In this document: piece after piece, positions 55,036 to 59,033 of the stretch
Layout: every line of letters begins with the position of its first letter
Position numbering within the stretch: position 1 is the first letter of the stretch
Assembly (NCBI GenBank): GCA_947625405.1
Contig: CANQOF010000003.1
Span: 1 to 64,000 of the forward strand
DNA length: 64,000 nt
Direction of reading: 5' to 3'
Source: an uncultured Atopobiaceae bacterium
GTDB taxonomy: Bacteria > Actinomycetota > Coriobacteriia > Coriobacteriales > Atopobiaceae
Program-made: the position numbers and the translations under genes
Notes under the pieces: model-generated
What the model saw: only the letters and a program-made list of their open reading frames with translations
Databases searched by the model: none
Told to the model about the DNA's origin: nothing

Positions 55036-55055
55036 TTTTCGACATTTGTCGAAAC
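55036..55055. promoter_or_regulatory. TTTTCGACA palindrome between rpmH and the ATPase gene
   Basis: TTTTCGACA (55036-55044), TT, TGTCGAAAC (55047-55055): two face-to-face copies of the 9-mer that also recurs in the dnaA-dnaN gap. Candidate DnaA-type sites or an operator controlling the divergent rpmH and ATPase genes. Confidence 0.5.
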
Positions 55056-55081: not shown

Positions 55082-55948
55082 ATGGGTGAGGACTTCTATC
55101 CATGGGTGAACGAGCCTTCTGCCCCGCGCCTCTCCGGTCAAAACAATGCACATCACGTGCAAGAAATGTCTGAAACTTTCAACTTCCTCCGTGATGACGC
55201 CGCGCCGCAGGAGGCGAGGATCGCGGTGCTCGACGCCGTGGACGTCGCGCCGAGGATCGTCATCGTGGCGCCGCAACCCATCCGCTCCTATGTGGACGAG
55301 CTCACGCAGACCACCTACCACCTCGCGAAAGAGCAGGGCGGCGCCATTCCCTTCATGGTCATCCGCGAAGTTGTGGAAAACCTCATCCACGCCTATTTCA
55401 CCGACCCCGTGGTGACGATCTTCCCAGGCGGAGACACGATCCGCTTCGCCGATCGCGGCCCGGGCATCCCCGCAAAGGAGCAAGCGCTCGAGTTCGGCAC
55501 CACCACCGCGAGCGAGGCGATGAAGCGCTACATCCGCGGCGTGGGGTTCGGGCTTCCCTACGTGCGCAACTTCATGGACGAGCACGGCGGCACGCTCTCG
55601 GTGGAGGACAACCTGAGCGGCGGCACCATCGTCACGCTCAGCCTTGGGGTGGCGCGAACGGAAGGGGCGCGCGCCGAAGCGCGCGATGGATCCCCTCGAA
55701 CGGGCGAACCCACGCTCGCCGAATCGCTTCCCGATCTCTCCCAAAACGAGCGCGACATCGTGTGCTACCTCGCCAAACACCATGATGTGGGGCCGAAGGA
55801 GCTCATGGCGGCCTATGGAAGCTCCGCCCCCACGTGGTCTCGGCGTCTCTCCTCGCTCGAGCGTAAGGGAATTGTGGAGAAGGTCGGCCAAAAACGCAGG
55901 CTCACGCCGCTTGGTTCGAAGGTTTGCCGCCTCGTAGCCGCGCGATAG
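55082..55948 (+). CDS. GHKL ATPase fused to winged helix, upstream of dnaA
   Basis: A 288-aa protein of unknown role. Residues 75-185 form a histidine-kinase-like ATPase module: N-box [14 protein letters not shown]1 FADRGPGIP, and G2-like [19 protein letters not shown]. There is no receiver, H-box or membrane segment. Residues 215-285 form a MarR/LysR-like winged helix ([20 protein letters not shown], then [20 protein letters not shown]). ATG at 55082 lies behind AAGGAGG; a GTG at 55019 is possible. It sits directly before dnaA on the same strand, behind a TTTTCGACA palindrome. Likely a nucleotide-responsive DNA-binding regulator of the origin region (inference). Confidence 0.8.
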
Positions 55949-56094: not shown

Positions 56095-57681
56095 ATGACC
56101 ATGGACCAAGACGCCTTCATCCTCTGGGACGACACCCGCCGCCTCATCGCCCGCGAGCCCTCCTCGGGCAGGCGCGTGGCCATGCTCGGTGCGTGTACGC
56201 CGGTCTCCCTCGAGGACGACGTGCTCACCGTGAAGACGACCTCGGCCTATGCGAAGCGCAGCCTCGACGCGGAAATCGACATCATCGAGGGAGCGCTCTC
56301 CGAGGCGGCGTTCGGCCCGATGAAACTCGTGATTGAAATCGATCGCGACGAGCTGCGCCCCATCTTCCCCACGCTCATCACCGAAGGCGTGGCGCAAGAC
56401 GCGGAGTGGTTCGACGGCACGGGCACCACGCCTCCATTCACCGTGGTGGGGGAGCGAGAGCCCGCGACGGTGATTCCCTTCGAAGCCTCAAAGACCTCCA
56501 TCTCGGAGGATGAGTTTCGCGCCCAGCTCGGCGAGGACGCGCGCGAGAGCGCGAAGCATCAGGAGCAGAGAGTCCAGGAACCCTCCGACAAGTCCCGCCA
56601 AAACCACCTCACGAGCGAGGTGAGCGACCAAGACCTCAAGCTCACCTTCGAGAACTTCGTCGAGGGCGCGGAGAACCGCATCGCCCTCATCGCGGCGAAG
56701 CAAGTGGCCAACGGCAACAACTCGCAGTACAACCCGCTTTTCATCTACGGCGAATCCGGGCTCGGCAAGACGCACCTGCTCATGTCCATCAAGAACTACA
56801 TCGCGAAGAACGACCCCTCGCGCACCTGCGCCTACATCACGGCCACGGACTTCATCAACGACTATACGAAGGCCATGATGGGCGATCGCAGCATCATCGA
56901 GGAGTTCACGAACGATTACCGCGACGTCGACGTGCTCATCATCGACGACATCCAACACCTGAAGAACGCCACGAACACGGTGCAATTCTTCTTCGAGACC
57001 TTCAACTACCTCGTCTCGAACGGAAAGCAGATCGTCCTCGCCGCGGACGAGCCGCCGGCGATGCTCGGCATGAGCGAACGTATCACGAGCCGCATGGGGT
57101 CGGGCTACGAAACCCCCATCAAGGCCCCCGAGCTCGAGCTCAAGCGAAACCTCATCGCCACGTTCTACCAGCGCTATAAGGAGGAGGCGCTGCCCGGCTA
57201 CGAGGGCACCATCCCCACTCCCGTGCTCGACGTGATGGCGGCCTCGGCGGGCGACAACATCCGCCTCATCAAATCCTACGTGCAGAATTGCCTCTTCCTC
57301 GCCACCGCCGTGGAGAAGGTGGGCGCCACCATCACCGACGAGGACGTGCGCGCGAAGGCGCGGGAGAAATGGCCCCACGGGCAGCGTCGCGTGACGGTGG
57401 AGGAGATCCAGCACAACGTGGAGCAGGTGATGAACGTGTCGCACGCCGACCTCATCGGCACGAAGCGCACGCGCGAGATCGCCCAGGCGCGCCACGTGGC
57501 GATCTGGCTTTGCCACCAACTCACCGACCTCACCTACGCGGAGATCGGCGCGCGCTTCGGCGGCCGCTCGCACACGACGGTGATGCATTCGTTCGACTAC
57601 GTGAACAAGCTGCTCTCCGACCGCACCGATCGCGCGCTCATCGACACCATCCAGAATCTCCATCGAAAGCTCGAGATGTGA
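56095..57681 (+). CDS. dnaA: Chromosomal replication initiator DnaA
   Basis: AAA+ initiator, 528 aa, which binds DnaA boxes and opens oriC. Domain III: Walker A FIYGESGLGKTHLL (about residue 220), Walker B VLIIDDIQHL, box VII/sensor region SERITSRMGSGYE with the arginine finger. Domain II is an acidic linker. Domain IV: TREIAQARHVAIWLCHQLTD, then IGARFGGRSHTTVMHSFDYV. The recognition helix has GGRSHTTV in place of the near-universal GGRDHTTV: the Asp that contacts box bases in E. coli is Ser. ATG at 56095 or 56101. It is followed by a 251-bp gap with CGAC-type repeats, then dnaN. Confidence 0.97.
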   Translation: MTMDQDAFILWDDTRRLIAREPSSGRRVAMLGACTPVSLEDDVLTVKTTSAYAKRSLDAEIDIIEGALSEAAFGPMKLVIEIDRDELRPIFPTLITEGVAQDAEWFDGTGTTPPFTVVGEREPATVIPFEASKTSISEDEFRAQLGEDARESAKHQEQRVQEPSDKSRQNHLTSEVSDQDLKLTFENFVEGAENRIALIAAKQVANGNNSQYNPLFIYGESGLGKTHLLMSIKNYIAKNDPSRTCAYITATDFINDYTKAMMGDRSIIEEFTNDYRDVDVLIIDDIQHLKNATNTVQFFFETFNYLVSNGKQIVLAADEPPAMLGMSERITSRMGSGYETPIKAPELELKRNLIATFYQRYKEEALPGYEGTIPTPVLDVMAASAGDNIRLIKSYVQNCLFLATAVEKVGATITDEDVRAKAREKWPHGQRRVTVEEIQHNVEQVMNVSHADLIGTKRTREIAQARHVAIWLCHQLTDLTYAEIGARFGGRSHTTVMHSFDYVNKLLSDRTDRALIDTIQNLHRKLEM

Positions 57682-57932
57682 GAGCGCGCGTCCATAAGCG
57701 GGTCGAAGACTGGTCGAAGTCTGTCGAAAAGTGGCCCTTGCGGGTCGAAAACCGGTCACGCATCGCACACACGGTCGATAAGCTGCGTAGTTATGAAGAC
57801 GAACGTACATTCGGATCGGCGTCTCGACGCTCACGCGACGCGCATTTTCGACTTTTCTACTTGCCTTACCACCACGACCACCCAATGAATCTCCTACAGT
57901 TGGGGTAAGTGAGCTCGATCGAAGGGGCGACC
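57682..57932. other. Probable oriC: dnaA-dnaN intergenic region with TTTTCGAC-type boxes
   Basis: 251 bp. 9-mers of the type TT(T/A)TCGAC(A/C/T) occur at 57722-57730, 57743-57751 and 57773-57781 (minus orientation; the last is TTATCGACC) and at 57845-57853 (plus). Two shorter GGTCGAAG copies lie at 57701 and 57712. Canonical TTATCCACA is absent. An AT-richer stretch at 57841-57900 could be the unwinding element. Position between dnaA and dnaN and strand switch of genes around dnaA support an origin here. Confidence 0.6.
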
Positions 57933-59033
57933 ATGAAATTCATCGTGAACCAGCAGAGCCTTTCCAGGGCCTTGGGCGTCGTCGGCAAGGGCCTCGCCTC
58001 CACGGCGGGCTCCGCCATCCTCTCTGGCATCCTCATTCGCGCCAAGGAGGGCACGATCGAGCTCCAGACCACGAACCAGACCATCCACATCCGCGACCGC
58101 ATCGCCGCGATGGTGGAGGAAGAAGGCGCGGTCGTGGTGGCCGGCAAGACCTTCACGAACGTGGTGAAGTCGCTTCCCGACGCGGCCGTGACGATCGAGA
58201 CCGACGGCACGCGGGTCTCCATCTCCTGCGAGCGTTCGCACTTCAAGCTGAACACCCTCGCCGCGGACGACTTCCCGGAGTTCCCGACATTTGCCCTCGA
58301 GCGCTCGGTGGAGCTTCCGGCCGAGGTGCTCTCCGTGATGGAGCAGCGCGTCTCGCGCGCCGTCTCGCGCGATTCGTCGCGCCCGATCCTCACGGGCATC
58401 CTGCTCACGCTCTCCGAGGGCGCCCTTCGCATGGTGGCGACCGACACCTTCCGCATGGCCGTATGCGACACAAAGGTGGAGGGCGCGGATCTCGAGCACT
58501 TCGAGATGATCGTGCCGTCCGGCGCCTTCCACGACGTGCTTTCCTTCGCGAGCGGCGAGGGGACGGTGCTCGTGGGGGTCACGCAGAACCAGGTGGTCTT
58601 CGAGACGGGCGACGTCACGTACGTGTCGCGGCGCATCGAGGGCACGTTCCCGAACTACAAGGCGATCCTCCCCGAGAGCTCGAGCACGCAGATCTCCTGC
58701 AAGGTCGACGCGCTCGACCAGGTGCTCCATCGCATGACGACCATCGCCTCGTCGCACCCCTCCGTGACGATCGACGTGGACGCGGACGGCCAGCTCATGA
58801 CCATCTCCGCGAAGAGCCCGGACGCCGGCGAGGCCACCGAGACGCTCTCCGCGAAGATCACCGGCGAGAACGTGACGATCATCCTCAACTATCGCTACGT
58901 GTTCGACTGCCTCGGCGCGCTGAAGGATGTGGAGGACGTGGCGATCGAGCTTCGGAGCTCGCGCGAGCCGGCGCTCTTCAAGGCGCTCGGCAAGGTGTCC
59001 TACCTCTACCTCCTCATGCCGCTTCGCGATTAA
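57933..59033 (+). CDS. dnaN: DNA polymerase III beta subunit (sliding clamp)
   Basis: Ring clamp that tethers DNA polymerase III, 366 aa. It has three similar domains; visible family segments are MKFIVNQQSLSRALGVVGKG, SRDSSRPILTGILLTLSEGA, LRMVATDTFRMAVCDTKVEG and the C-terminal FKALGKVSYLYLLMPLRD, with the LMPLR end that forms the protein-binding pocket. ATG at 57933 has AAGGGG six bases upstream. It starts the rightward dnaN-recF-dciA-gyrBA run. Confidence 0.98.
   Translation: MKFIVNQQSLSRALGVVGKGLASTAGSAILSGILIRAKEGTIELQTTNQTIHIRDRIAAMVEEEGAVVVAGKTFTNVVKSLPDAAVTIETDGTRVSISCERSHFKLNTLAADDFPEFPTFALERSVELPAEVLSVMEQRVSRAVSRDSSRPILTGILLTLSEGALRMVATDTFRMAVCDTKVEGADLEHFEMIVPSGAFHDVLSFASGEGTVLVGVTQNQVVFETGDVTYVSRRIEGTFPNYKAILPESSSTQISCKVDALDQVLHRMTTIASSHPSVTIDVDADGQLMTISAKSPDAGEATETLSAKITGENVTIILNYRYVFDCLGALKDVEDVAIELRSSREPALFKALGKVSYLYLLMPLRD

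Follow-up and report, generated by a model that had tools for sequence, protein, structure and literature searches.

Loss of Asp433 from Atopobiaceae DnaA and probable relaxation of position 6 of the DnaA box

The stretch of DNA analysed here (the window; 64,000 nucleotides) comes from an Atopobiaceae genome of 1.72 Mb and carries a dnaA gene in which a conserved aspartate of the DNA-binding domain is replaced by serine, next to a dnaA-dnaN gap with unusual repeated 9-mers. Did the initiator and its box change together, and if so, in what way? The original prediction, made from the window, held that they had, the sixth base of the box changing from C to G. The first half of this proposal agrees with what we found in related genomes, and the second half does not. 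The explanation that we consider probable is that, in the Atopobiaceae, DnaA lost Asp433 (E. coli numbering) at the base of the family and position 6 of the box was relaxed alongside.

The dnaA locus of the window

The protein encoded by this gene is the chromosomal initiator DnaA: both the AAA+ domain III and the Bac_DnaA_C domain IV are present. The gene order dnaA-dnaN-recF near rpmH is found in the window, with a recF-like gene after dnaN (Table 1), and dnaN adjoins dnaA in nearly all of the Coriobacteriia genomes compared. The AT skew of the contig flips sign around 42-60 kb, in line with an origin in the dnaA-dnaN gap. An AlphaFold model of the protein (mean pLDDT 90) keeps the DnaA fold and has 8btg as its best PDB match.

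Domain IV reads GGRSHTTV at 57559-57582 in place of GGRDHTTV, as the original prediction had it, and the Ser codon lies a few bases before the start given there. This Ser occupies the column of D433 in E. coli DnaA (1j1v) and of the Asp in B. subtilis chain 8btg; Asp at 433, a conserved but not a defining feature of DnaA, is absent from the window protein. The recognition helix starts after GGRS, and in the model the Ser immediately precedes this helix (316-332), as its N-cap. Good N-caps for helices include Ser, Thr and Asn as well as Asp.

The dnaA-dnaN gap, presumed to be oriC, contains no canonical TTWTNCACA site; the sole match in the whole window (55372-55380) is inside the neighbouring gene and corresponds to the number expected by chance. 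Four TTWTCGAC sites are present in the gap, three on the minus strand and one on the plus strand. Both the missing canonical box and the repeated motif had been predicted. Two weak boxes (TCTTCGACC and ACTTCGACC) lengthen the 57722 box into an array with 10-11 bp phasing, and at the site of that box (57722-57730) three relatives from the same genus keep TGTCGAAAA or GGTCGAAAA.

TTTTCGACT and TTTTCTACT form a plus-strand tandem pair, after which come a 4-bp spacer and then a degenerate DnaA-trio region; the second of these boxes, which adjoins the trio region, was missed by the original prediction. In an alignment of four genus members the tandem pair stays in frame but differs at positions 5 and 6, the sixth base of the proximal box being T in the window and G in the three relatives. 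The trios are TTATTACTACTA in other Atopobiaceae genera but degenerate (TTACCACCACGACC) in this GC-rich one, and the box assignment there therefore leans on the relatives.

A gene for a HATPase_c and winged-helix protein is located between rpmH and dnaA. It has approximately 40-50% identity across the Coriobacteriia and approximately 30% in family f31, and is conserved beyond the Atopobiaceae; judging by its place in the dnaA locus, it may be connected with replication or with the control of replication. Two boxes were predicted to face each other upstream of this gene. The plus-strand half is an exact match and the minus-strand half has a single mismatch; they are 2 bp apart (55036-55055) and approximately 30 bp upstream of the gene. 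Genus members keep the inverted pair, with G, A or T at position 6, a pattern that DnaA autoregulation would lead one to expect. Boxes with G or T at position 6 upstream of the operon were found in 46/177 cases in the Atopobiaceae and in 0/48 in the lineages with Asp433.

Table 1. Features of the dnaA locus and predicted DnaA boxes, in window coordinates
Feature	Position	Strand	Basis
DnaA box TTTTCGACA, left half of inverted pair	55036..55044	+	exact match
DnaA-box-like GTTTCGACA, right half of inverted pair	55047..55055	-	single mismatch
HATPase_c + winged-helix gene between rpmH and dnaA	55082..55948	+	Pfam; start picked after GGAGG site
dnaA, replication initiator, 528 aa	56095..57681	+	Pfam Bac_DnaA 1e-49, Bac_DnaA_C 6.9e-25
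DnaA domain IV helix-turn-helix (Bac_DnaA_C), residues 435-501	57397..57597	+	PDB relatives 1j1v, 8btg, 3pvp
Ser codon TCG, aligned with E. coli Asp433	57568..57570	+	alignment, model
dnaA-dnaN gap, presumed oriC: box cluster and DnaA-trio region	57682..57932	.	sequence, trio anchoring, genus alignment
Weak DnaA box TCTTCGACC, position 6 = G	57701..57709	-	sequence; 11 bp before next box
Weak DnaA box ACTTCGACC, position 6 = G	57712..57720	-	sequence; 10-11 bp phasing with neighbours
DnaA box TTTTCGACA	57722..57730	-	TTWTCGAC match
DnaA box TTTTCGACC	57743..57751	-	TTWTCGAC match; aligned in relatives
DnaA box TTATCGACC	57773..57781	-	TTWTCGAC match
Distal box of unwinding element (box 6, B. 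subtilis scheme), TTTTCGACT	57845..57853	+	TTWTCGAC match, alignment
Proximal box (box 7, B. subtilis scheme), TTTTCTACT	57853..57861	+	genus alignment, trio region adjoining
4-bp spacer TGCC, proximal box to trio region	57862..57865	+	genus alignment
Degenerate DnaA-trio region TTACCACCACGACCACC	57866..57882	+	same position as TTATTACTACTA in relatives
dnaN	57933..59033	+	Pfam; 3' of dnaA

Residue 433 and box position 6 in related genomes

DnaA was located in 147 Coriobacteriia genomes, comprising 96 Atopobiaceae (32 genera) and 51 others. The original prediction had proposed aligning related proteins at this residue: Asp433 is absent from 96/96 Atopobiaceae (63 Ser, 27 Thr, 5 Lys, 1 Val) and present in 48/51 of the other Coriobacteriia, the remaining three all having Asn. 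Among the 80 columns of domain IV, D433 is the most differentiated and the only one without overlap between the two groups. Asp433 was probably lost once, at the base of the Atopobiaceae. At one locus (L111, genome G017) the dnaA frame seems interrupted near domain IV by one internal TAA, which is either a sequencing error or a real frameshift.

A ranking of 9-mers in the gaps, run without a prior motif (it replaced expectation-maximisation, which drifted to AT-rich low-complexity motifs), is led by TTTTCGACA-type words in the Atopobiaceae and yields TTTTCCACA-type words for genomes with Asp433; DnaA-trios come up in both. Genome-wide counts of TTTTCGACA and TTTTCCACA do not separate the Atopobiaceae from the Asp group.

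The proximal box was then read by its adjacent DnaA-trios, with T4, A7 and C8 required and positions 5 and 6 free. An anchor using the trios only, at a fixed spacing, was dropped as it misaligned lineages having a 3-bp spacer. Position 6 of the proximal box is G in 34, T in 25, A in 22 and C in 1 of the 82 Atopobiaceae genomes anchored in this way, and C in 30/38 genomes with Asp433. At the genus level, C is in the majority in 1/28 Atopobiaceae genera versus 22/24 Asp genera (p 2e-11, ignoring shared ancestry), and the keto bases G and T together in 22/28 versus 0/24 (p 2e-9, again ignoring shared ancestry). Loosening the anchor to T4 and C8, or to T4 and A7 only, left the result unchanged. 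When changes are counted on a tree built from DnaA without domain IV, at least 29 are needed at position 6 within the Atopobiaceae, approximately one of them to C; the other positions of the proximal box have 0 to 14 changes each, fewer than position 6. Asp433 loss and the change at position 6 coincide exactly at the base of the Atopobiaceae, and the main co-change is one evolutionary event.

Base composition has to be considered as a source of this pattern, with the boxes being random 8-mers of GC-rich genomes. The genome of the window is indeed GC-rich, and TTWTCGACM is also found elsewhere in it (20 sites versus 7 for the reversed pattern). Nevertheless, the enrichment over dinucleotide shuffles is 8- to 70-fold, the upper value being that for TTWTNGACM in the gaps of the window genus (11 observed versus 0.15). 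C is frequent in the spacer adjoining the proximal box, meaning that it is not locally depleted, and the effect extends over 32 genera. We give chance hardly any credence.

The same counts bear on a strict switch, in which the box became TTWTCGAC with G for C at position 6. The 11 G boxes of the window genus speak for such a switch, as does TTTTCGACA being among the top 9-mers of the Atopobiaceae. Family-wide, however, G is no commoner than T or A: position 6 is A in 36%, G in 26%, T in 26% and C in 13%, and G predominates only in the GC-rich genus of the window, where the window's own proximal box has T. C boxes also persist away from the proximal site. Observed/expected ratios from dinucleotide shuffles are A 9, G 8, T 8 and C 6 in Atopobiaceae gaps outside the window genus, and C 17, A 5, G 2 and T 2 in Asp gaps; the bases disfavoured in the latter are thus exactly the keto bases. 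Since several Asp lineages use TTATCAACA, an A as sixth base has no diagnostic value. The original prediction had named Ser-bearing relatives with canonical boxes as evidence that would count against it. Three such relatives (G010, G029 and G079) have TTTTCCACA in the gap, which tells in part against a strict switch and not against a relaxed specificity. Taken with the approximately 6-fold enrichment of C boxes, they indicate that any of the four bases would be accepted in the family and that C is avoided in the proximal box. Position 6 appears to be relaxed, rather than switched from C to G, and we consider a strict switch improbable.

Another regulator might also read these sites. TGTCGAA is a Spo0A box as well, TGTCGAAA matches the 0A box, and an inverted pair of sites stands upstream of the operon; the TTTTCGACA and TGTCGAAAA sites could belong to Spo0A, with the real DnaA boxes elsewhere. 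However, the sites fit the layout of tandem boxes, spacer and trios, and their position 6 varies while the other bases are held. Spo0A_C was absent from 31/31 Atopobiaceae genomes searched, with a positive B. subtilis control, and Spo0A was rejected as the reader of the sites. A second regulator of this kind is very improbable, though we rate it slightly above chance composition.

Asp433 is also missing from lineages outside the Atopobiaceae. Families f31 and f47 of the same phylum have His at 433, and Asn occurs there in part of family f3. Weighted by genus, C at position 6 drops to 26% in the His lineage and 26% in the Asn lineage, compared with 64% in Asp genomes; in the His lineage position 6 moves mainly to A, with some C kept. 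Of five independent contrasts, 3.8 on average agree with the expectation and 0.1 oppose it (sign test median p 0.125). Recurrence in the Asn and His lineages is weaker and suggestive, the number of contrasts being too small for significance. The predicted joint change of protein and box is supported both by the coincidence at the Atopobiaceae base and by this recurrence.

Further variants were seen in these families. At loci L220-L235 (f31 and f47) DnaA reads GGRHHST and boxes are often TTWTCAACA. Family f53 has Gly or Asn at 433 (GGRGH, with Gly, at L243 and L246), and its dnaA-dnaN gaps are very short and box-poor (about 120-150 bp at these two loci).

A possible role for residue 433

In the major groove, C and A present an amino group and G and T a keto oxygen. 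This amino/keto difference is, on chemical grounds, what an Asp carboxylate would distinguish. In an ordinary DnaA, the exocyclic amino group of a C (or A) in box position 6 would donate a hydrogen bond to the carboxylate of Asp433, which sits where the recognition helix starts, whereas the keto oxygen of a G or T there would be repelled. With Ser or Thr at 433 the recognition helix would still be capped but the amino-base filter would be gone, making TTTTC(G/T/A)ACA boxes usable. The protein would otherwise behave as a normal DnaA: it would bind the gap boxes, assemble from the tandem pair onto the strand with the DnaA-trios and open the origin. We infer from these patterns that Asp433 reads box position 6; a published assignment gives D433 and L438 to box position 7, not 6 (PMC8235120).

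In its most general form, this proposal makes residue 433 a simple amino/keto filter for base 6: Asp would admit only C or A, its replacement would also admit G and T, and the lineages concerned (Atopobiaceae with Ser/Thr; others with Asn or His) would have relaxed independently, their origins drifting accordingly. To this general form we give even odds.

Three other listed base contacts changed on the branch that lost Asp433: P423, and also T435 and L438 except in the window genus. Substitutions such as P423 to A/E, T435 to A and L438 to K may have driven the box change, the loss of Asp433 being incidental. P423 and T435 are the next most differentiated columns of domain IV, nearly fully distinct between the Atopobiaceae and others, and the effects of P423 and D433 are inseparable by sequence comparison. 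On the other hand, the window genus keeps Thr435 and a hydrophobic residue at 438 and yet has G/T boxes, so that T435A is not needed for the box change there. P423 is already variable in Asp lineages that keep C, and loss of Asp433 is what the Asn and His lineages have in common. We regard these other substitutions as an unlikely cause, if the least unlikely of the alternatives, and prefer the loss of Asp433 itself.

The DnaA box is regarded as nearly universal, and searches for origins seek TTATCCACA-like sites whose sixth base is C. In the Atopobiaceae, such searches would overlook boxes or put them in the wrong place. Approximately 30 genera without Asp433, together with a matched change at a single origin position, offer a clean natural experiment on the matching of residues to bases, and suggest that even the core initiator-origin code can relax. 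The literature search found no paper describing the Atopobiaceae case of residue 433 and box position 6.

Comparison with known initiators and origins

The Atopobiaceae share with the DnaA proteins of E. coli, B. subtilis and M. tuberculosis the domain order, the helix-turn-helix and the equivalents of R399, R407, R432 and H434, and share with the canonical TTWTNCACA box the frame T1-T4, C5 and A7-C8 and the site next to dnaN. They differ in the replacement of Asp433 by Ser, Thr, Lys or Val and in a position 6 that is not restricted to C (or A); C at this position, a mark of the canonical box, is not found in the gap of the window.

The basal unwinding system of B. subtilis consists of tandem DnaA boxes, a short spacer and DnaA-trios (PMC8287927, PMC10721633). 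A like arrangement, usually with a second co-oriented box, is found in 82 Atopobiaceae gaps and is weaker in the window's own genus. Unlike in B. subtilis, the sixth base of the proximal box is G, T or A.

The nearest precedent is the epsilonproteobacterial DnaA, in which box recognition is likewise lineage-specific and recognition-helix residues are altered: the box has T at position 5, and residues 435, 438 and 439 are changed while 433 is conserved (PMC5043019). In the Atopobiaceae, it would be residue 433 that is paired with box position 6. Thermotoga maritima DnaA, with the box ACCTACCAC (PMC10316083), also resembles the Atopobiaceae in that contact residues and box both depart from the consensus; in T. 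maritima the whole box is rewritten, whereas the Atopobiaceae differ at a single position in an otherwise standard box.
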